Notes under the pieces: model-generated
Database searches by the model: none
What the model was told of the DNA's origin: nothing
The model's input: only the letters and a program-made list of their open reading frames with translations
Assembly: GCA_025929315.1 (NCBI GenBank)
Contig: JAICMI010000009.1
Coordinates: 1 to 37,265 of the forward strand
Source of the DNA: Frankiaceae bacterium
Lineage (GTDB): Bacteria > Actinomycetota > Actinomycetes > JAFAQI01
Length of the DNA stretch: 37,265 nucleotides
Direction of reading: 5' to 3'
Part shown: piece after piece, positions 6,655 to 34,075 of the stretch
Layout of the letters: each line of letters starts with the position of its first letter
Position numbering within the stretch: position 1 is the first letter of the stretch
Translations under genes and position numbers: made by a program

Positions 6655-7329
6655 TCAGGGCCAGTCCGCTCTTGGCGTCGTGCCGTCGTCTGAGGTGGCC
6701 GGGTGCTTCAGGCCGGCATAGATCGCGCCGCGGCGACCACCCTGGCCGATGATCGCCTCGAGCTGCTCGTCGCTGGTGCGCCCGACGCGGATCCGTACGC
6801 CGTCGTAGGTGACGACGTCGAGCTCGTCGACGTTGTCGACGGTCTTGCCGGCCATCACCGAGTGCGTCCCGCAGGCGTTGTTGCCGATCATCCCGCCGAG
6901 AGTTGCGTGGTCGTGCGTCGCCGGGTCCGGGCCGAACGTCAGCTGATACTCCTCGGCGGCGTCCCGCAGCTCGTCGCACACCAAGCCCGGCTGCACCCTT
7001 GCTTGCCGCGCCTGCGGATCCAGGTGCACGAGGGCGTGCATGTACTTCGAGAAGTCGAAGACGACCGCCGAGTTGACGCTCTGGCCGGCGAGCGCCGTGC
7101 CACAACCTCGGCCGAGCACCGGCGCGCCATGCCTGCGACACACCTCCAGGCCGGCGAGCACGTCCTGCTCATGCCGCGGAATCACGACTCCGATCGGCAC
7201 CTGGCGGAACACCGACGCGTCATACGCGTACAACGCCCGCGAGCCAGCGTCGAAGCGCACCTCGCCCTCTAGCGCTTCGGCCAGCTCACGCTGCAGCGCG
7301 TCGGCGTACTCCGGCGGCACGGAGTCACG
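6655..7329 (-). pseudogene. N-terminal fragment of a FAD-linked oxidase (D-lactate/glycolate-oxidase type)
   Basis: FAD_binding_4 motifs (VLGRGCGTALAGQSVN, PDPATHDHATLGGMIGNNACGTHSV). The ORF stops after about 225 aa, whereas this family continues with C-terminal FAD and often Fe-S domains. Confidence 0.7.
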
Positions 7330-7430
7330 CATCGAAGAGGCGTCGCGTTGACGCCGGGCGGCTGGTGCTGCACCTCGTGTCACGATATACGCGCTACCGC
7401 ATAGGAGAAGCGGGCAAACCCTGGAGAGAC

Positions 7431-8192
7431 GTGGAACGCTCTTACCTGGACAGGCGCGCGGGGCTGGCGCCTGCCCTGGCAGCTGTCGCCGGTTACGTCG
7501 ATGCGGTCGGGTACTTGAGCCTGAACGTGTTCACCGCCCACATGAGCGGCAACAGCGCCCGCCTCGGCGTTTACCTGAGCCACCACGGATGGCACGACGC
7601 GCTCGTGGTGGTTTTCGCCGTGGCCGTCTTCGTTGCCAGCATCGCCGCGGGGACGCTCATCATGGAGCTGGGTGCACGTGGTGGTCGGACGCACACCGAC
7701 GCGCTGCTCCTCCTTGTCGAAGCTGCACTGCTCGCGGTGTTTGCCGTCGTTGGCCAGCTCTCGCAAGTGCAGGGGCGGATACCCAGTGCGCCCGCTGTCC
7801 AGTTCTACGGGCTTGTTGCCTGCGCCGTCTGCGCGATCGGGCTGCAGACCGCGTCGCTGCAGCGCATCAGTGGGCAGCCCGTCCGCACCGCCTTCGTTTC
7901 CGGCATGCTGACAGCGCTGGCCGACGAGATCGTCGGCGCGGTGACGCAACCACATGCCGGTCGGGGCAAGCGCAGCTACCTCGCCGATGAGCTCGGCATG
8001 CGCGGAAGGCCACAGCCGGGCCGCGCGTTGCTCATCGCGTTCATCTGGCTGGGCTACGTCGGCGGGGCAACCGGAGGAGCCTTCCTGCAGCGGTCTTGGC
8101 ACTTGATGTCGCTGGTCTTGCCGATCGCACTGCTGGTCGCCGTCGCAGCGGCGACCCGGCGCCTCCTCGAGCGCAGCTCGCCCGGGCACTAA
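7431..8192 (+). CDS. YoaK/DUF1275 family membrane protein
   Basis: AAVAGYVDAVGYLSLNVFTAHMSGNSARLG, LQTASLQRISGQPVRTAFVSGMLTALADEI; start uncertain (the ORF opens at 7365). Confidence 0.88.
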   Translation: MERSYLDRRAGLAPALAAVAGYVDAVGYLSLNVFTAHMSGNSARLGVYLSHHGWHDALVVVFAVAVFVASIAAGTLIMELGARGGRTHTDALLLLVEAALLAVFAVVGQLSQVQGRIPSAPAVQFYGLVACAVCAIGLQTASLQRISGQPVRTAFVSGMLTALADEIVGAVTQPHAGRGKRSYLADELGMRGRPQPGRALLIAFIWLGYVGGATGGAFLQRSWHLMSLVLPIALLVAVAAATRRLLERSSPGH

Positions 8193-8556: not shown

Positions 8557-10326
8557 TCAGTCCTGGTCGGGTCGGAGCGTGGCAGCGGTCTCGAGCATCA
8601 GTGCGTGTACGAAGGCCTGCGGCAGGTTGCCACGCAGTTGGTGTTGGTTGACGTCGAACTCTTCGCTGAACAGTCCGGGTGGGCCGCACGCGGCGCGATT
8701 GCGTTCGAAGAACCTCATCGCTTGCACCGCATCGCCTTGCTGGTGTTGAGCGAGCGCCATGATGAATCCGCACAGCACGAAAGCGCCTTCGGCTTGCGCG
8801 AGCGGTCCCGGCTGCTGGCGGAATCGGTAGACGAAGTGCTCGTCGGCCAGTTCATCGCGCACGGCCCGCGTCGTGGCAAGTGTGCGCGGGTCGTCAGCCG
8901 GTAACGCACCGCGGATGCTTGGCAGGAGCAGGGCTGCGTCGACGTTCGAGTCGGCCGTCGATCGTTGCCATCGCCCACTTGGATGCACGGCTTGTTGCGC
9001 GGTGGTGGCGAGGATGGTGTCGGCGAGCGCTTCCCAACGTCCGGCTTGGGTGGCGGCTGCTGATGGCGAGATGGAGCGGAGCCCGGCGACGCAGGTGAGC
9101 CGCGAATGGGTCCAGTGCTGGTTGTCGATCTCCCAGATGCCCGCGTCGGGTTCGGTCCAGCGTTGTTCGATCGCGTGGACCGCGCTTTCGACGGCTTTCC
9201 AGTGCTCGGTGTCGAGTCGGTCGTGGCGGGCGGCAGCGGCGAACAGAAGCAGGCTCTCGCCAAGGGCGTCGAGCTGGAACTGCTGGTTCACCCAGTTGCC
9301 GACCTTGTCGGCGCCGCCGGGGTATCCGTCCAGCTGGGCGAGCGGGCGTTCGTCGGGGACGCGGTCGCCGTCGACGGTGTACGCCGGTTTGAGCTGCGGG
9401 CCGTCGGCCAGCAGCCGCCCGGCGATGAAGGACACCGCGTCGTCGAGCAGCGGCAACGGCTCCGTGGCGGCGGCGGCTTGGCCGGCATAGCACTGGTCGC
9501 GGATCCACGCGTACCGGTAGTCGTAGTTGCGGCCGGCTTCCGAACGCTCTGGCAGCGACATGGTGGCGGCGGCCACCATCCCACCGCCGCGGCTGGTGAG
9601 GCCGCGCAACACCGCGTAGGCATGGGTCGCATCGCGGGGCGCGATGGTGTCGGTGAGCTCGGGGGCTGCTTCGTGCCAGGCATACTCCGTCGCCTGCCAG
9701 ACCTGCGCCGGATCGAGCACTTCGTCCGGCAGTGCCTGGTCGGAGATCTCAAGCACGAGGTCGCGGTGCTCACCCGGTCGCAGCTTGAATCCGAGTGTGA
9801 GCGCTCCGTCGCTGCGCCGGGCGCCGTCGGCGCCGGTCCAGCGCAGGTGCAGCCGCCCGGTGCGCGCCGTCCAGATGCCGTGGGATGACCGGACGTCGCG
9901 AAGGGGCTTGGTGCCGAAGCCGTCGGTAGGGGCGAGCACGACTTTGATCGGGCAGGCGCAGTCGATGGCCTTTACTCGGCGCATCAGCACGAGGCGACGT
10001 TCGTCGCCGGGAAAGGCGAGCGCGTCGCGGGACTCGACGATGCCGTCGGTGGTGACCCACCGGCTGCGCCAGATGAGTGAGCGTGGCTCGTAGTAGCCGC
10101 CCCAGACGAAACGGTCGACGTCGGGGGAGACGGCATAGACACCGGCGCCGCCGATCAGCTCGCTGAAGACGGCCTCGCTGTCCCATCGCGGGGAGCACAG
10201 CCAGGCGATGTCGCCGCGCGGTCCGACGAGCGCGCCGCGCTCGCCGTCGGCGAGCAGCGCATACTCGCGGAGCACTTGCGGGGGATAGGCGCGGGTGATG
10301 TCCACGTCAGCTTGCGACCTCGGCAC
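8557..10326 (-). CDS. Glycoside hydrolase family 15 (glucoamylase/trehalase-like)
   Basis: LLADGERGALVGPRGDIAWLCSPRWDSEAVF, GGGMVAAATMSLPERSEAGRNYDYRYAWIRDQCY (GH15 hallmark). Confidence 0.92.
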   Translation of the reverse strand: MPRSQADVDITRAYPPQVLREYALLADGERGALVGPRGDIAWLCSPRWDSEAVFSELIGGAGVYAVSPDVDRFVWGGYYEPRSLIWRSRWVTTDGIVESRDALAFPGDERRLVLMRRVKAIDCACPIKVVLAPTDGFGTKPLRDVRSSHGIWTARTGRLHLRWTGADGARRSDGALTLGFKLRPGEHRDLVLEISDQALPDEVLDPAQVWQATEYAWHEAAPELTDTIAPRDATHAYAVLRGLTSRGGGMVAAATMSLPERSEAGRNYDYRYAWIRDQCYAGQAAAATEPLPLLDDAVSFIAGRLLADGPQLKPAYTVDGDRVPDERPLAQLDGYPGGADKVGNWVNQQFQLDALGESLLLFAAAARHDRLDTEHWKAVESAVHAIEQRWTEPDAGIWEIDNQHWTHSRLTCVAGLRSISPSAAATQAGRWEALADTILATTAQQAVHPSGRWQRSTADSNVDAALLLPSIRGALPADDPRTLATTRAVRDELADEHFVYRFRQQPGPLAQAEGAFVLCGFIMALAQHQQGDAVQAMRFFERNRAACGPPGLFSEEFDVNQHQLRGNLPQAFVHALMLETAATLRPDQD

Positions 10327-11269
10327 TGCGGCCGACGGTTACGCCGTCGCCGGGGTAAGAGGTGTCGTCGGCTGCTGCTCCGGCGCGGGCCTCCCCGCGG
10401 CCAGAGGTCTGGTTGGTGTCGCGATGCGGTTTCGCTGGCAACGTGGTGGCGTGCACCGACGGGTAACTCGGATCGTGGAAGAGCTTCGCGGTCAGCGTCT
10501 GACGTTCCCGGCCGAGGAGTGGGAAGCACACGGCAGCGAGCAGCGCGCCGGCGACTGGTCCGGCGAAGTACGCCCACAGCACCGGATAACCACCGGTGAC
10601 GATGTCGGGGCCGAGGGTGCGTGCGGGGTTCATGCTGGCCCCCGTGTGTGCGGCGCCGGCCCAGATCAGACCGGCGAGGGCACCGGTGACAACCGCGGGG
10701 GTCCATCGGGCGGTGCGGGGTGAGGACACCATCGTGAACACGACGGTGAGCAGCCCGAAGGTGAGGGCAGCTTCGATGCCGACCACCCCCCAGGACGGCA
10801 AGCCGGTCGCCGGTGCGGTGCGCGCACCGTGCACTGCGCCGGCCCACCCCTGCCAGGCCGCGCGGAACGCGAAAGCCGCGGCGAGTGCGCCTACCGTCTG
10901 TGCGGCGGCGTAACCGCACAGGTCGCGCACCGGGGTGTGCTTGCGCAAGAAGAACCCGAGTGTCACGGCGGGGTTGAGGTGGGCGCCGCTGCGCCTTCCG
11001 ATCGGGGACAGCGCCACGGCGGCGGCGAGCACTCCGAAAGCGACGCCGATGAGCACCAGCCGCGACCATCCCGGCAGGGCGCTGGTCGCCGGTGACTGTG
11101 GCGCCTCGAGCAACGCGACGACGCCGAAGCCGACGAACAGCTGGAAAGCGGTGCCGGCGAGCTCGCAGGCCCAGTCGGTGAGGTGCCAGCCGGATGCTTT
11201 GGGTTGCGGTGCCGGAGCGTCGTCCGGGTGGCCCTTCAAATGCCCTTGCGCGTGAACGTGCTGACTCAC
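10307..11269 (-). CDS. MIP family aquaporin/glycerol-facilitator-like channel
   Basis: Two NPA boxes (GAHLNPAVTLGFF and GASMNPARTLGPD); GTG start overlaps the SDR stop (GTGA). Confidence 0.92.
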   Translation of the reverse strand: MSQHVHAQGHLKGHPDDAPAPQPKASGWHLTDWACELAGTAFQLFVGFGVVALLEAPQSPATSALPGWSRLVLIGVAFGVLAAAVALSPIGRRSGAHLNPAVTLGFFLRKHTPVRDLCGYAAAQTVGALAAAFAFRAAWQGWAGAVHGARTAPATGLPSWGVVGIEAALTFGLLTVVFTMVSSPRTARWTPAVVTGALAGLIWAGAAHTGASMNPARTLGPDIVTGGYPVLWAYFAGPVAGALLAAVCFPLLGRERQTLTAKLFHDPSYPSVHATTLPAKPHRDTNQTSGRGEARAGAAADDTSYPGDGVTVGRSAEVAS

Positions 11270-12273
11270 CGGCGCGACCGCCAGAGCGCGCCGGCCGCCG
11301 CAACGGCCCCGACGAGTCCCATCGCGAGCTGCCGGCGGTGCATCGACGCGGCCGACCACGGATCATGTGGATGCGCCTTGGCGTCGAACATGCCGTGCGC
11401 CCCGCGGTCCTCGTCGTCGTCGCGGGGTTGGTGGACGTTGGAGCCATAGCGCGGCCCGTCGTTCTTGGACAGCTGGCCGGACACACCGGTCTTGCCGAGG
11501 TACCAGTCCAGGAACCACGGTGCTACCCGGTTGCCGAGGACCGTGTAGGCGGTCGAGATGCCGACCCACATGTTTCGCCGCGGATGTACGACGAGGTAGG
11601 CGATCGCGCGGGCAGCGGTTTCCGGCTGGAAGACCGGCGCCACCGGTTGCGGGTGCGCCTCGAAGCCGTTGTCGTTCCAGTTGAACTGTGTCGTGTTGAG
11701 CCCGGGTAGCTGCACCATGCAAACCTTGACCCGGCTGCCTTCGTGCTTCAGCTCGGTGATGACGGACTCAGTTGCGCCCTTCACCGCGTGCTTTGCGCCG
11801 CAGTAGGCCGACTGCAACGGGATGCCTCGGAACGCGAGCGCGGAGCCGACGTTGACGATCACGCCCGAGTCGCGCGGGCGCATCCGCGACAGCGCAACTC
11901 GCATGCCGTTGACCTGTCCGAAGTAGGTCGCCTCGGTGATCTGCCGGTAGGTCTCGGGCTCGGTGTCCCAGAAGAACTTGAGGGCACCGACGAACGCGAC
12001 GTTCACCCACGCGTCGATCGGTCCAAGCTCCACTTCGACTCGTTGCGCGGCCTTTTCGAGTGCCTCGAGGTCCGCAACATCGACTTGCACGGCGAGCCCG
12101 CGCCGACCAGCGTTCTCCACCTCTTTTGCGGCGGCCTCCACACCTGCGCGGCCACGCGCGAGCACGGCCACGTCCCAACCCTGGTTGGCGAGCTCGCGCA
12201 CTGCGGCCCGACCGACTCCACCGCTGCCGCCGGTGACCACAGCCACGCCGCGTCGGTTCTGTTGGTGTTCCAA
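11266..12273 (-). CDS. Short-chain dehydrogenase/reductase (SDR)
   Basis: VVTGGSGGVGRAAVRELA and YCGAKHAVKG (YxxxK); RBS AGGAGGGC. Confidence 0.93.
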   Translation of the reverse strand: MEHQQNRRGVAVVTGGSGGVGRAAVRELANQGWDVAVLARGRAGVEAAAKEVENAGRRGLAVQVDVADLEALEKAAQRVEVELGPIDAWVNVAFVGALKFFWDTEPETYRQITEATYFGQVNGMRVALSRMRPRDSGVIVNVGSALAFRGIPLQSAYCGAKHAVKGATESVITELKHEGSRVKVCMVQLPGLNTTQFNWNDNGFEAHPQPVAPVFQPETAARAIAYLVVHPRRNMWVGISTAYTVLGNRVAPWFLDWYLGKTGVSGQLSKNDGPRYGSNVHQPRDDDEDRGAHGMFDAKAHPHDPWSAASMHRRQLAMGLVGAVAAAGALWRSRR

Positions 12274-12293: not shown

Positions 12294-12308
12294 TCTCGCA
12301 CTACGAGA
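12294..12308. promoter_or_regulatory. Putative MarR-regulon operator site 1
   Basis: TCTCGCACTACGAGA, 6-bp arms with one mismatch, 21 nt upstream of the SDR ATG. Confidence 0.65.
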
Positions 12309-12331
12309 CGCATCCCCGGACTGGAGCCTGC

Positions 12332-12830
12332 CTAACCCGAGCGGCCGCTGCTAGCCGCGGTGTCTTCGCTGGCGGCTCTGGACATGACCAGCTGGGCCAG
12401 TCGTGATTGGGGGGTGAATGTCGGTGACATGCCGATCACGGTGCCGGCCGACCACAACAGCGCGCCCGCGAGTGTGTGGAACTCTCCCCGCTGGCCGCCG
12501 TCGCCGACGCAACCCGCGTCACCGGCAGCAACCGACCCAGACGGGCCAGCCGCACTACTGACAGCGCCCTCACCATCGGCACCGCAGTATCAGCAGCTGC
12601 AACACATGCCGGCGCAGGAACGCCGCGCGTGAGGTGCGACGAGCAGCTTCGCTACGAACTCGACGGCGAACACCGCCCAGAGCGCCGTGGTGACGAGGTC
12701 GAGCGTTCGAGCGGCAGCAGAGGAGCCCGGCACCAGCAATGTCGAAGCTTTCCTCGTCGGTGCCGTCGTAAGCGGTCGGTCTTGCGCGATGCTGGTCACG
12801 AGCGGCGACGGGGGAGATCTCGAACCGCAT
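12332..12830 (-). pseudogene. Frameshifted remnant of a voltage-gated (potassium-type) ion channel
   Basis: Successive minus frames read LDLVTTALWAVFAVEFVAKLLVAPHARR / AFLRRHVLQLLIL / TAVPMVRALSVVRLARLGRLL / GALLWSAGTVIGM, resembling S2-S4 and the pore helix of bacterial K+ channels. Confidence 0.6.
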
Positions 12831-14157
12831 CTGTGAGCATCGGTGAGCTCGGCAGCTCGTCGATGAGCGGCCATAGCTGGTCGAGGTCATCCATGAGCTG
12901 GTCGCGTCGGTGTCCGGTGGCGCGCTCGACGAGGCGGCGGTAGCTGTCGAGGACACGCGCTGATTCCATGTGCTGGTGTGACTCGTGGGCGACCACGACG
13001 AGGGAGAACATCGCTTCGAACACGCGGTCCAGATCGTTGTCGCGGTAGACGACGGGGAGGATGACGTCGCGCTCGCCGGCTTCGCCGGCCGGGTCGTTGT
13101 CGAGGAACCGGGCAGCGAGGTCGCGCAGGGCATACATCGCTTCGCGGGACACTTCGGGGTTGTGCTTCGACGACGACCCGGACGTCCAAGCGATGTTCGC
13201 CAGCTCGTCGATGCCGGTGGTCGCGTCGTGGTCGAGGTTGCGCTGGCGGCTGATGACGATCGCGGTGAGGACGGCTTGCTCCATCTTCTTGTCCACGACG
13301 TCGTCGTCGGCCGCGACGGTCGCGAGATCGTCGCCGTAGCTGACGTACTGTCCGATGGTCACCGCGAGCCGCACCTCGCCGCCGCGGCCTTCGGCGACGG
13401 CGTCGGCGAGCACCTCCACGTCGATGCCGGTGACGTAGCCGGTGGTTGATGATCGCAATGTCAGGCGCACGGGCGCGTCCGACTGGGCTGAGCGCCGGGT
13501 GCGGTGCACGGTGCGACCTTCGCGTCGGCGGGCGTCGAGGACGCTGTCGTGGATGTGCCTGACGACATTCGTCGGACGCATCTGGTCGATGCTGGTGTAG
13601 ACCAGCGCGAGCAGCAGCAACATCGACACGACTGTCAGGACGGTCGCCAGGAAGGCGCCGATGGTCGGCGGCGTGTTGTCCTGCACGACGGCCATCACGA
13701 CGTAGGCGTAGAGAGCGAGGCCGACGAAGAAGCCGAGGAAGACCTGGTTGGTCCGTCGTCGGACGAACTGGTCGAACACGACTGGCGACAGGCTGGAGGC
13801 GGTCTGCTGAACCGCAAGCAGGAGCACAGAGAACGTGATCGACGTCACGGTGATCAGCCCGGTCGCGATCGCCTGCAGCGTTGTCGTCGACGCGTGCTTA
13901 CCGATGACATGGCTCAGCGCGCGCCGCAGGGCGTCGAGCCCGGAGAGGTGGGCCTGGTCGCCGGCGATCGAGATCGCAGCGAGGACAGCGAACCCGAGCA
14001 TCACGAGCAGTGGCGCGGCGGCGAACTCGCGGAACGCCCGCGCGATCACACCGGAAAGGTGGTGCCGGTGAGGGCTGGACTCATCCGACGGCACAAGGAC
14101 GACCCGTCCGGCTGTGGTGGCCGCCGCCGGCGCATGTTCTGCCGAAGGCGCTCCCAC
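12796..14157 (-). CDS. DUF2254 family membrane protein
   Basis: SITFSVLLLAVQQTASSLSPVVFDQFVRRRTNQVFLGFFVGLALYAYVVM, typical of DUF2254. Confidence 0.88.
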   Translation of the reverse strand: MGAPSAEHAPAAATTAGRVVLVPSDESSPHRHHLSGVIARAFREFAAAPLLVMLGFAVLAAISIAGDQAHLSGLDALRRALSHVIGKHASTTTLQAIATGLITVTSITFSVLLLAVQQTASSLSPVVFDQFVRRRTNQVFLGFFVGLALYAYVVMAVVQDNTPPTIGAFLATVLTVVSMLLLLALVYTSIDQMRPTNVVRHIHDSVLDARRREGRTVHRTRRSAQSDAPVRLTLRSSTTGYVTGIDVEVLADAVAEGRGGEVRLAVTIGQYVSYGDDLATVAADDDVVDKKMEQAVLTAIVISRQRNLDHDATTGIDELANIAWTSGSSSKHNPEVSREAMYALRDLAARFLDNDPAGEAGERDVILPVVYRDNDLDRVFEAMFSLVVVAHESHQHMESARVLDSYRRLVERATGHRRDQLMDDLDQLWPLIDELPSSPMLTDAVRDLPRRRS

Positions 14158-15966
14158 CTACTCCTCCGTTCCCGGCAGCTTCTCCTTCGCGTGCTCGGTG
14201 AACTCGGTGAGCTTGCCCTTGAACCCCTTCTCGGTGATTCCGACGCGGTCCTCGTCCCCGTGGACGAACGCTTTGGTGAGCTTCTTGACCATCGCAGGCT
14301 TGACGTGTGGCGGCAGGCAGGCAATGTCCGGATCGGTGTGGAACTCCAACAGGACCGGACCGTCCGCCGCCAGCGCCCGGTCCCACGCCGGACCGACGTC
14401 GTCGGGCGACGTCACCTTGATGCCGGTGAAGCCGAGGCTCTCCGCGAACTGCGCTGCCGGCATGTAGGGCAGAGTCTGGGTCTCCGGGTTCTTCGGGTCA
14501 CCGGAAAGCACCCGCTGCTCCATCGACACCTGGTTGAGGTCGTTGTTGACGAGCACCGAGAAGATCAGCGTCTTGTTCTGCGCCATCAGCTGTGGCAGGT
14601 AGTGCTTCACCGTCAGCAGCTCGTTCATCCCGAGCATCTGGAAAGCGCCGTCACCGGTGAAGCCGATGACGGGCCGGTCCGGGTGAGCAAACTTCGCCGA
14701 GATCGCGTAGGGCACTCCGGGCACCATCGTCGCAAGCGTGCCGGACAGTGACCCACGCATTCCCTCGCGGATGAAGCACTGACGGGCGTACCAGTTCGTG
14801 CTCGACCCGGAGTCGCTGGTCATGATGACGTTGTCCGGCAGTCGCTTGTTCAGCTCCCAGAACACGCGTTCCGGGTTGATCGGATCGCCGTCCTGCTGCG
14901 CGCGCTCCTCGAGGATGCGCCACCAGATGCGTATCTCTTCCTCGATGTCGTCGCGCCAGGAGCGATCGGTCTTGCGGTGCAGCATCGGCAGCAGCGCGGT
15001 CAACGTGTCCTTGGCGTCCCCGACGAGAGAGACGTCGTTGGGATACCGGACGCCGATGAGCGACCCGTCGATGTCGATCTCGACGCACTTGGCCTGCCCC
15101 GGCTTCGGCAGCCATTCGGCATACGGGAACGAGGTGCCGACCATCAGCAACGTGTCGCAGCCCATCACCATCTTGTTGCTCGGCTCCGTTCCGAGCAGCC
15201 CGATCCCACCGGTAACGAACGGCAAGGTGTCGGGCAGAACGTCCTTGCCGAGCAGCGCCTTGGCAACGCCGCAGCCGAGGAGCTCGGCGGTCTCGATCAC
15301 CTGCGCAGCGGCCTCCCGCGCGCCCTGGCCGATGAGGATCGCCACCTTCTCGCCGGCGTTCAGCACATCCGCGGCCTGCCGCAGCAGCTTGTCGTCCGGA
15401 ATCATGTGTGGCCGGTTCCATCCGACCGAGGTGAACACCGCGCCGTGCTCGCGAGGAGGGTCGGAGTACTTCGCCTCGCCGACGTCTTCGGGGATGATCA
15501 CGATTGCCGGGCGCCGCTCTTCGTATGCACTTTTGATCGCCCGGTCGATGATGCTGCGCGCCGCGGCCGGCTCCATGACGGTAGCCGTGTAACCGCCGAC
15601 GTCCTTGAACAGCACGCTGAGATCGATCTCCTGCTGATAGTGCGCGCCGAGACTCGATCGCTTCTGCTGTCCGACGATTGCCAGCACCGGTTGGTGGTCG
15701 AGCTTCGCGTCGTACAGACCGTTGATCAGGTGTACGGCGCCGGGGCCACTCGTAGCGATGCAGCAGCCGATCTCACCGGTGAACTTCGCGTGTGCACAGG
15801 CCATGAACGCGGCCATCTCCTCGTGCCGCGTCTGGGTGAAGAACGGATCGGGATAGGCGCGATGGAACGCGCCGAGGAAGGCGTTGATCCCGTCACCCGG
15901 ATAGCCATACACACGATGGATGCCCCAGTCGCGCAGTCGCCCCAGGATCCAGTCTGCCGTCTTCAT
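14158..15966 (-). CDS. Thiamine-pyrophosphate-requiring enzyme (pyruvate oxidase/acetolactate synthase-like)
   Basis: YGYPGDGINAFLGAF, RHEEMAAFMACAHAKFTGEIGCCIATSGPGAVHLINGLYDAK; C-terminal GFTGDGAFQMLGMNEL (TPP motif). MKTADWIL start at 15966. Confidence 0.93.
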   Translation of the reverse strand: MKTADWILGRLRDWGIHRVYGYPGDGINAFLGAFHRAYPDPFFTQTRHEEMAAFMACAHAKFTGEIGCCIATSGPGAVHLINGLYDAKLDHQPVLAIVGQQKRSSLGAHYQQEIDLSVLFKDVGGYTATVMEPAAARSIIDRAIKSAYEERRPAIVIIPEDVGEAKYSDPPREHGAVFTSVGWNRPHMIPDDKLLRQAADVLNAGEKVAILIGQGAREAAAQVIETAELLGCGVAKALLGKDVLPDTLPFVTGGIGLLGTEPSNKMVMGCDTLLMVGTSFPYAEWLPKPGQAKCVEIDIDGSLIGVRYPNDVSLVGDAKDTLTALLPMLHRKTDRSWRDDIEEEIRIWWRILEERAQQDGDPINPERVFWELNKRLPDNVIMTSDSGSSTNWYARQCFIREGMRGSLSGTLATMVPGVPYAISAKFAHPDRPVIGFTGDGAFQMLGMNELLTVKHYLPQLMAQNKTLIFSVLVNNDLNQVSMEQRVLSGDPKNPETQTLPYMPAAQFAESLGFTGIKVTSPDDVGPAWDRALAADGPVLLEFHTDPDIACLPPHVKPAMVKKLTKAFVHGDEDRVGITEKGFKGKLTEFTEHAKEKLPGTEE

Positions 15967-16005
15967 CCGCGGTCCTCCCGCATGAGTACAAGGAACGTAG
16001 AGATA

Positions 16006-16020
16006 TCTCGTAACACGACT
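16006..16020. promoter_or_regulatory. Putative MarR-regulon operator site 2 (divergent TPP enzyme/MarR intergenic region)
   Basis: TCTCGTAACACGACT, overlapped by the perfect palindrome GAGATATCTC (16000-16009) and flanked by GGAACG (15992-15997) and CGTTCC (16023-16028). Confidence 0.65.
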
Positions 16021-16070
16021 TCCGTTCCCGGTGGGCGTGCTCTCAACCGTTGCGTGGGGATACTGGCAGC

Positions 16071-16457
16071 GTGACTGAAGAGCCGGATTACGCCCGGTTA
16101 GCAGAGTTCCGAAAGGCACTCCGCGGGTTCTTGCGATGGAGTGAGCAGGCGGCCAAGAGCGTCGGGTTGACGACGATGCAGCACCAGCTTCTGCTCGCGA
16201 TCCGCGGCCGCGGGGGTGCGCCAACGATCGGGGAGATCGCCGAAGACCTGATGCTGCGCCACCATTCGACGGGTGAGCTCATCCACCGCGCCGAAGCCGC
16301 CGGACTGGTCGCGCGGACACAGGACGCAGGCGACCGCCGGCAGATGCGCGTCACCGCCACCGGGGCGGGAAACCGTCTGCTGCACCGTCTTTCCGAACAG
16401 CACCTGAACGAGATTCAGCGCCTTGCCCCCATGGTGGAAGCACTGGCGTCGGAGTGA
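16071..16457 (+). CDS. MarR family transcriptional regulator
   Basis: LTTMQHQLLLAIRGRGGAPTIGEIAEDLMLRHHSTGELIHRAEAAGLVARTQDAGDRRQMRVTATGAG (winged helix and wing D-x-R-x-x-x-V-x-x-T). Confidence 0.92.
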   Translation: MTEEPDYARLAEFRKALRGFLRWSEQAAKSVGLTTMQHQLLLAIRGRGGAPTIGEIAEDLMLRHHSTGELIHRAEAAGLVARTQDAGDRRQMRVTATGAGNRLLHRLSEQHLNEIQRLAPMVEALASE

Positions 16458-16482
16458 GGGGGCCGGCGAGCGAACGCCGGTC

Positions 16483-17556
16483 TCACGCTGCCGCGAGCAC
16501 AGCGTCTGCTGCGTCCACGCCATGCACCACCTGGCGAGAGCGCGAGCTGCCAATCCGGTGGACCGCCAGCGCGAGATCCTCTTCGCCATAGGACACCGCG
16601 GCAAGTCCGGTGGCTTGCAAAGTGGCCGCGTTCAGGCGTCCGTGGCCGGCGAGAGGCTGGTGCAGGATTATCGGTGTCCCGGCGACGATTGCCTCCCAGC
16701 AAGTCGTGCCGCCGGCACTGTCGATGACGACATCTGCGGCTTTCAACCACTCGTTCATCTGATCCGTCCAACCGACGGCATGGCAGCCAGGTAGCTGTGT
16801 GACCGATGCGGCAAGCCGCGACGAGTTTCCGCACAGGACGTAGGTGCGGGCGCCGGTGGACGTGACCACACGCGCCGCGTCGGCGACAGCGCCGACACCC
16901 CAACTGCCGCCGTGAACGATGACGATGAACTCATCAACGGGAAGACCTAAGTCTTGACGTGCCTGCTCCTGGTTCAACGGGGTGGGAGCCGCGACCAGCG
17001 GGTCAACGACGTCAACTCTCGGTGCACCCATCTGTCGTAGCGCTTCCGCTGTCGCCTCCAACGGTGCCAAGTGCAAGTCTGCACCCTTCGCTACCCAGTA
17101 CGGATGTGCGCCGGCATCCGTCACATATACCGCGACGGGTACGTCCAGCTGCCCGCGCTGCCGCAGTCGCCCGAGCAGCTGGCCGGCGAGGTTGTAGGTG
17201 GAGATCACGACGTCGGGGCCGAACGCGTGCATCTCCCGCCTCAAGCCCCGCGCATATCCACCTCCGCCAGCGGCCGCGACCCGTTCGAAGGCCCACGGGT
17301 GACGCATCCAACTGCGCATGAACCAGTCGTACAACCAGGGGATGCGTGCCAGCACAAACCGATACACGCCCCGGGAAAGCCGGCCGAACGGGCCACGTGG
17401 AAGAGCCAGATAGTCCACCACCCGCACATGTGCTCCGCGACGCTGCAGATGCTCGCCGAAAACTTGCGCCGCCGTCATGTGACCTGCGCCCATGGTTGAG
17501 CCGACGATCAGCACGCGCGGGTGATGTGGGAATTCGAGGACGTTCGACTCTGCCAT
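16483..17556 (-). CDS. MGDG-synthase/MurG-like glycosyltransferase
   Basis: GSTMGAGHMTAAQVFGEHLQRRG, DVVIDSAGGTTCWEAIVAGTPIILHQPLAGHGRLNA. Confidence 0.85.
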   Translation of the reverse strand: MAESNVLEFPHHPRVLIVGSTMGAGHMTAAQVFGEHLQRRGAHVRVVDYLALPRGPFGRLSRGVYRFVLARIPWLYDWFMRSWMRHPWAFERVAAAGGGGYARGLRREMHAFGPDVVISTYNLAGQLLGRLRQRGQLDVPVAVYVTDAGAHPYWVAKGADLHLAPLEATAEALRQMGAPRVDVVDPLVAAPTPLNQEQARQDLGLPVDEFIVIVHGGSWGVGAVADAARVVTSTGARTYVLCGNSSRLAASVTQLPGCHAVGWTDQMNEWLKAADVVIDSAGGTTCWEAIVAGTPIILHQPLAGHGRLNAATLQATGLAAVSYGEEDLALAVHRIGSSRSRQVVHGVDAADAVLAAA

Positions 17557-17576
17557 GCGGCTCCCTCCGCCTAATC

Positions 17577-17591
17577 TCTCGTAAGACGAGA
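17577..17591. promoter_or_regulatory. Putative MarR-regulon operator site 3
   Basis: TCTCGTAAGACGAGA, perfect 6-bp arms, 21 nt upstream of the glycosyltransferase ATG. Confidence 0.7.
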
Positions 17592-32719: not shown

Positions 32720-34075
32720 TTAAAGCAACTCCACCAGCGGGAACGACCGACGCGCCCGCGGTGGGAGCAAGTAGTTCTGTCGGTGCGTCGTCGTCAGCAT
32801 CTCGGTGAAACCGAGGTCCTCGTCGGCAAGCTTGTACTGAGCTTTGAGGTCCTGACTGTCCATTTCCCGCCGCATCAGCTCGAAGTGCTGAGCTGACGGA
32901 CCGCAGCCGACGAAATGAACACCCGGACAGGGAGCCGCGAGGACTGAGGCGTCGGTCGAGATACCGAACGGGTTCTCGACCGTGTTGAAGTCCTGCCGAA
33001 GAAAGAAGACGGTTCCCTTGACCAGCTTCTGCCCATACGCCGTCGTCGTGTCGGTGCCCACGCGCGACAGAAACTGCATCTGTTCGTTGTGGCCCACGAG
33101 CTTGTAGTCCCGAACATGCTGATCTCGTTCGGTCTTGAACGTCGACGACGCCGGCGACTGGTCCGGACTCAGCACCTCGTCAGCCTCGGTCCGACGAGCA
33201 TGGAAGGTCCGCACGAGGCGCTCCCTGGCGCTGAACTGGTACCAGCGTTCGAGATCGACCGCGATATGGGACAAGTGCATGGCCGTGCCATGTGCGAAGT
33301 AGCTGTCGGGGGTCTGATCGGTGTAGCCGGGAAGTGTCTCGAAACTCGGCAAGTTTCCAGCAGCAAGCCCATGAACGTGACTCGACGTGAAGCCCATGAA
33401 CAGCATCGATCCAGCCGGGATCTTTTCAGCTCCCGGGATCCGCAGCCGTTCGCCGATGAGCTTCGGCAGGTTTCGTCCGGCGAATCCGCGGCGGATGGAC
33501 GTCACCGTCAGCAGATCACCGACGTAGGCGTTCTCCGCAGGAATGCCGTTGAGAAAACTCATGCCAGGTTGAAACAGGGCTCCGATGGTGTTTTCGATGT
33601 GATCTCGGTAGTCGCTCTTGAAGTGGAAGCAGATCTCGTTGTCCTCCAAGACCAGATCTTCTGGGTCCATCGGGAACCGGACCGTGTCAGCCAGCGCCCA
33701 TTCGCCCTCGCTACCGGGCAGCGTCGACTTGGGCATGTACTCGTCGGTCAGGCTGGCTGGAAGTCGCGTCCGGAAGTAGCCCGCTCCGTACGCGACCTGA
33801 ATGAAGATGCCTCCTGGTTGCAGCGGATAGACGTTCTCCACCTCGGCCAAGGCGACGGCCAGTCGGTGCGAGGCGCTCCGCAGCGTCTCGAGGTCATCGG
33901 GGGCGAAGGCCAACCGAGCGGTGACCACGGCGTGCCACAGCGGGACGACCGCAACCGGCACATCCTGGTGGAGCTCTTCCGTGATTCCGGGTAGCTCGTA
34001 CTGGGTCAACGGAGGATCGACCGGCACTCTCTTCGCGTAGTCGACGACCTTTGCCCAGTCGAATGTGGCGGTCAC
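32720..34075 (-). CDS. Dyp-type-peroxidase-like protein (divergent)
   Basis: GTAMHLSHIAVDLERWYQFSARERLVRTF, GTVFFLRQDFNTVENPF and VHFVGCGPSAQHFELMRREMD resemble C-terminal Dyp segments; no clear GxxDG motif; GTG start with RBS GGAAGGA. Confidence 0.5.
   Translation of the reverse strand: MTATFDWAKVVDYAKRVPVDPPLTQYELPGITEELHQDVPVAVVPLWHAVVTARLAFAPDDLETLRSASHRLAVALAEVENVYPLQPGGIFIQVAYGAGYFRTRLPASLTDEYMPKSTLPGSEGEWALADTVRFPMDPEDLVLEDNEICFHFKSDYRDHIENTIGALFQPGMSFLNGIPAENAYVGDLLTVTSIRRGFAGRNLPKLIGERLRIPGAEKIPAGSMLFMGFTSSHVHGLAAGNLPSFETLPGYTDQTPDSYFAHGTAMHLSHIAVDLERWYQFSARERLVRTFHARRTEADEVLSPDQSPASSTFKTERDQHVRDYKLVGHNEQMQFLSRVGTDTTTAYGQKLVKGTVFFLRQDFNTVENPFGISTDASVLAAPCPGVHFVGCGPSAQHFELMRREMDSQDLKAQYKLADEDLGFTEMLTTTHRQNYLLPPRARRSFPLVELL

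Follow-up and report, generated by a model that had tools for sequence, protein, structure and literature searches.

Organization of the MarR locus

The window analysed here, meaning the whole stretch of 37,265 nucleotides, contains a gene for a MarR-family regulator with several metabolic and membrane protein genes around it, and among them lie four 15-bp inverted repeats (Table 1). A sequence-only reading of the same DNA had described three of these repeats, and their sequences and coordinates proved exact. Pfam and NCBIfam matches bear out the transcription units that it placed downstream of them, namely SDR-aquaporin-GH15, TPP enzyme-DUF2254, and the MGDG-synthase-like glycosyltransferase. 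In the second unit the DUF2254 gene begins directly after the TPP stop codon and is probably co-transcribed with the TPP gene.

Table 1. Putative operators and neighbouring genes of the window.
Feature	Sequence	Position	Strand	Remarks
Operator site 1	TCTCGCACTACGAGA	12294..12308	.	20 nt before SDR TTG start
Operator site 2	TCTCGTAACACGACT	16006..16020	.	Intergenic, between divergent TPP and MarR genes
Operator site 3	TCTCGTAAGACGAGA	17577..17591	.	20 nt before glycosyltransferase ATG
Fourth operator	CCTCGTGTCACGATA	7373..7387	.	Between divergent FAD-oxidase and DUF1275 genes
MarR-family regulator, proposed repressor, 128 aa		16071..16457	+	Pfam MarR_2 1.7e-12
TPP enzyme, PRK08273/pyruvate-oxidase-like, candidate target		14158..15966	-	NCBIfam NF006129, 908 bits, above cutoff
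DUF2254 membrane protein		12796..14157	-	Pfam PF10011 7e-50
SDR oxidoreductase (PRK07109 subfamily), first gene of unit 1		11266..12273	-	NF005495, 380 bits, above cutoff
Aquaporin/MIP gene, unit 1 (SDR-aquaporin-GH15)		10307..11359	-	Pfam MIP 8e-33
GH15 glucoamylase/trehalase-like gene, unit 1		8557..10326	-	Pfam Glyco_hydro_15 8e-43, TREH_N 2e-14
MGDG-synthase-like glycosyltransferase, candidate target		16483..17556	-	Pfam MGDG_synth 9e-11, Glyco_tran_28_C 2e-7
FAD-binding oxidase gene, candidate target of fourth site		6655..7332	-	Pfam FAD_binding_4 3e-35
DUF1275 membrane protein, candidate target of fourth site		7431..8192	+	Pfam PF06912 2e-32; start inferred

Over the 6 + 6 bp of the two arms, identity is 5/6 in site 1, 4/6 in site 2, which is an imperfect palindrome, and 6/6 in site 3, a perfect 6-3-6 palindrome. 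Site 2 lies between the TPP and MarR genes as had been claimed, with 39 nt to the TPP ATG (15966) and 50 nt to the MarR GTG (16071). Sites 1 and 3 had both been put 21 nt from an ATG; the geometry holds (20 nt are left between, the difference 17577 − 17556 being 21), but the SDR start is a TTG (12273). The fourth site, overlooked in that reading, is the window's best match to the motif of the relatives described below and is flanked by divergent starts at 7332 (-) and 7431 (+), being non-coding only if DUF1275 starts at 7431, as a Shine-Dalgarno-like sequence and the Pfam match indicate.

Site 3 follows the stop codon of a co-directional MFS gene by only 7 nt, so read-through from upstream is possible. 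This closeness, and the fact that sites 1 and 3 could sit in 5' leaders, would suit a role of the inverted repeats as RNA hairpins (a leader structure, an attenuator, or a terminator of the upstream gene) in place of DNA operators; such a role is nevertheless very improbable, for what is conserved is the sequence itself and not just its pairing, in either orientation and also at divergent promoters, and no U run comes after the sites.

The MarR protein and its subfamily

The window protein scores 47.7 bits against PF12802 (cutoff 27) and 28.9 bits against PF01047 (cutoff 24.6), which places it in the MarR family, whose winged helix-turn-helix proteins have about 130-180 aa against its own 128, and its fold class is clear from Pfam. 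No NCBIfam equivalog matched it at cutoff: the best-scoring named MarR model is HpaR (TIGR02337), yet at 27.6 bits versus 121.2 this is far below the cutoff, and the window MarR is no member of that group but belongs to a subfamily without a curated name. Solved MarR structures have only remote sequence similarity to it; PDB entries 3zmd and 3zpl are, we presume, those of SCO3205, a regulator considered further below. The window MarR has no cysteine, and among 19 members no column holds a conserved one, which argues against a thiol-redox sensor of the OhrR type with a reactive cysteine near the N terminus.

A close homologue (E <= 5.5e-23) was found in 17 of the 198 genomes searched, its own genome included, and other MarR proteins in this set were clearly separate (E >= 6e-11). 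From GTDB genomes a scan recovered 80 named homologues, whose hosts include Actinomadura, Nocardia, Mycolicibacter, Pseudofrankia, Jatrophihabitans, Acidimicrobiia, and Acidobacteriota and Pseudomonadota MAGs. The homologue family is tight, with identities of 42–58%. The window protein itself stands on a long branch. In genomes of the same family the MarR is mainly of a paralogue type that lacks the palindrome, and because of this no close orthologue was comparable.

The operator upstream of MarR relatives

A palindrome resembling TATCGTRnYACGATA recurs before MarR homologues in many families. With a score of at least 18 it was present in the 300 bp upstream of 33 of the 80 homologues, where 0.15 were expected from shuffles and 0 occurred inside genes; its bearers reach beyond Actinomycetota to MAGs of Acidobacteriota and Pseudomonadota, and about half of the homologues have no palindrome upstream. 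Enumeration of perfect inverted repeats without any given motif put ATCGT-N3-ACGAT first; it occurred in 24 of the 87 non-redundant regions upstream of homologues, where shuffled sequences reached maxima of 3 to 8. The consensus of the family is TATCGTRnYACGATA. The TCTCGYANNACGAGA operator of the sequence-only reading is a local variant of that consensus. The interpretation of TCTCGT as the drifted form of TATCGT in the Frankiaceae genome, together with a putative local autoregulated regulon, is well supported, and the long branch of the window MarR would be in keeping with such drift. The 11-bp core of site 2, TCGTAACACGA, is identical to that of TATCGTAACACGATA, which stands upstream of MarR homologues in three genomes (G024, G046, G134).

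The exact string TATCGTNNNACGATA occurs in 4 of 17 genomes with a MarR homologue (8 sites) versus 2 of 181 without one (2 sites, both intragenic). In a set of 28 genomes, which were picked for holding a MarR homologue, most of them with an operator-like site upstream, 13 contain 1 to 4 exact sites each against 0 or 1 in the control, and such low numbers per genome indicate a small and local regulon. Cultivated strains with a single exact site in the genome include Actinomadura bangladeshensis and Nocardia jiangxiensis. The recurrence of the operator upstream of MarR homologues provides comparative backing for the earlier proposal that the adjacent MarR is the cognate regulator and is autoregulated.

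The palindromes might instead serve another regulator, such as a TetR-type protein or the MarR paralogue encoded on contig C78, with the adjacent MarR incidental. The same genome does encode a paralogue of 52% identity at C78:22378, and the window MarR is itself divergent; against this, the paralogue and its same-family orthologues are without the palindrome upstream, most sites of the genome cluster around the window MarR, and the operator follows the window-MarR subfamily across phyla. We regard another regulator as unlikely, and the C78 paralogue in particular is disfavoured by the absence of the palindrome from its own upstream region. The paralogue (C78:22378-22737) and its same-family orthologues at L066, L068, and L071 have a different conserved promoter string, GCTACACCT followed by CATG.

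At several loci of the subfamily the operators occur as tandem pairs, overlapping or adjacent, with a 13-bp period in L100, L130, and L193 and a 16-bp period in L129, L140, L148, and L151. This fixed spacing suggests that two dimers may be placed side by side.

Sites in the window and in the genome

A matrix was made from 31 sites of the relatives, with the window left out. Its four best positions in the window are 7373 (18.2), 16006 (13.4), 17577 (12.7), and 12294 (8.7), followed by a next value of 6.9. All four are non-coding and not more than 100 nt upstream of a start; such zones cover 4.1% of the window, and 0 of 1000 column-permuted palindromic matrices placed their top four all in promoter zones. 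Site 1 is the weakest of the four and weak by itself, since shuffled windows contain about 3.5 positions equally good. A matrix of relatives only therefore picks out all three sites noted before, in agreement with a regulon of several units. The earlier list of sites was incomplete: the window holds a fourth, and the rest of the genome has at least one more.

The genome scans were pattern searches in a MAG that is 68% complete. The loose motif behaves as background: with three mismatches the pattern proposed earlier gave 18 matches versus 22.8 expected. Matches with one mismatch, such as TCTCGTACGACGAGA, are mostly intragenic and there translate as Ser-Tyr-Asp-Glu (SYDE) or similar codons, and a large genome-wide regulon with TCTCGTACGACGAGA was rejected, since most such matches are coding. 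The strict form TMTCGYNNNRCGAKA, on the other hand, is rare, with four occurrences across the 2.65 Mb assembly and 0 for the reversed control: 12294 and 17577 in the window, one coding place on contig C119, and C171:27312. The last, TATCGTGTTACGATA, is an exact family operator on another contig, about 16 nt before a gene whose small membrane product contains CxxC motifs, a placement that matches sites 1 and 3 in geometry.

These counts bear on whether the shared 15-mers are artefacts of chance or composition. The background level of loose matches in both window and genome, and the SYDE-type codons which yield similar strings within genes, speak for it; strict matches that exceed controls, and four top matrix matches all in promoters, equalled by none of the permuted matrices, speak against it, and chance has very little credibility as an explanation.

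On contig C171 of the same genome (G000) a further string, TATCGTCGTACGACA, lies at 12774-12788 (L189) with a matrix score of 19.4, where a minus-strand ORF has its edge and a plus-strand gene begins shortly after; it is possibly a sixth site of the Frankiaceae genome.

Genes linked to the operator

The commonest operator-linked partner across the subfamily is a CLC chloride channel: at 16 loci a CLC gene stands beside the operator, which is most often found between the MarR and CLC genes. Other linked genes encode SLAC1 anion channels, a small Cys-rich membrane protein, STAS proteins, universal stress proteins, patatin, DUF3040, and others. The sequence-only reading had put forward a possible osmotic, envelope or carbon-flux role, which would be conjectural; the recurrent targets, in particular the CLC/SLAC1 channels, universal stress proteins, and the small Cys-rich protein, point to a putative function in general stress or ion balance. 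The small membrane protein, which no Pfam family describes well, combines a single hydrophobic helix at the N terminus with two CxxC-like motifs, and it is operator-linked in L105, L111, L112, L117, L120, and L164.

With regard to the targets in the window, conservation appears to be partial, in that the TPP enzyme recurs with the operator whereas the SDR and glycosyltransferase do not. Homologues of the TPP enzyme have upstream operators in two distant genomes, G220 (L111/L214) and G082 (L216), and the enzyme of L111, from an Acidimicrobiaceae MAG, is 53% identical to that of the window. The operator was upstream of none of the SDR homologues in 14 genomes and of none of the glycosyltransferase homologues in 13 genomes, which leaves these two genes unsupported as conserved targets. 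Genes for SDR, GH15-like, GDE, MarR, and TPP proteins are found within one locus of G082, SDR and TPP genes are neighbours in Actinomadura, and patatin, which the window also encodes, is operator-linked in L117.

In G024 and G046, homologues of the DUF7405 protein that are 74% identical to the product of window positions 32720-34075 are preceded by an exact TATCGTGTTACGATA at a distance of about 100 nt; no such operator was seen upstream of the window copy.

Proposed mechanism and related regulators

The operator goes with this MarR subfamily, and its sites lie in promoters. From this association we infer that a MarR dimer physically binds the 15-bp palindromes of 6-3-6 layout (TATCGTRnYACGATA, with TCTCGT...ACGAGA at several sites of the window) and represses, rather than activates, the genes beside them. 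The palindromes would overlap or adjoin the promoters of marR itself, of TPP enzyme-DUF2254, of SDR-aquaporin-GH15, and of the MGDG-like glycosyltransferase, and the FAD-oxidase and DUF1275 genes are probably also under this control. A small ligand or stress signal would release the protein and switch on a small set of stress, ion, or carbon-overflow genes. In all, the window MarR is most likely an autoregulated local repressor of several nearby units acting via these palindromes.

With rather less assurance, we favour the view that the subfamily, which would be undescribed and extends beyond Actinomycetota into Acidobacteriota and Pseudomonadota MAGs, may form a common switch for stress or ion homeostasis with its own operator TATCGTRnYACGATA. 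Its small, island-like regulons would put CLC and SLAC1 anion channels under one control with universal stress proteins and pyruvate-oxidase-like TPP enzymes, along with patatin, DUF7405, and the small Cys-rich membrane protein.

The mechanism itself, an autoregulated MarR with local targets, would be ordinary and known, for AesR and SCO3205 work alike with other operators. In Corynebacterium glutamicum, AesR (NCgl0019) binds palindromes of the 6-N3-6 type within its own divergent promoter and thus resembles the window system as an actinobacterial MarR with a divergent autoregulated promoter and a 15-bp palindrome of the same layout, whereas its operator is ACTATG-N3-CATAGT, its targets are other ones, and a response to metals and aromatics has been shown for AesR only (PMC13413800). 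SCO3205 of Streptomyces coelicolor is likewise an actinomycete MarR with a small regulon, whose operators were found via the upstream regions of orthologues, but its consensus is TTnAAnnnTCAA (PMC3737563). PA3458 of Pseudomonas aeruginosa, a MarR repressor of its divergent operon with a role in osmotic stress, differs in a motif with TT...AA ends and in its targets, and the osmotic role belongs to PA3458 (PMC8070244).

Exact-string and key-word searches of open-access literature returned no description of the TATCGTRnYACGATA operator or of its regulon; a broader control search did retrieve papers. For a widespread MarR subfamily still without a curated name, the present data supply a specific, testable operator and a list of target genes, including DUF2254, DUF7405, and the small Cys-rich membrane protein, the function of which is not known; the link with CLC and SLAC1 suggests candidate inducer signals.

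The window as a whole (1-37265) resembles a stress island, with genes for a DksA-like protein, two RsbU-type phosphatases, an RsbW-like kinase, a universal stress protein, a KdpE-like regulator, MMPL, and patatin, names that, patatin excepted, reflect an impression of the sequence.
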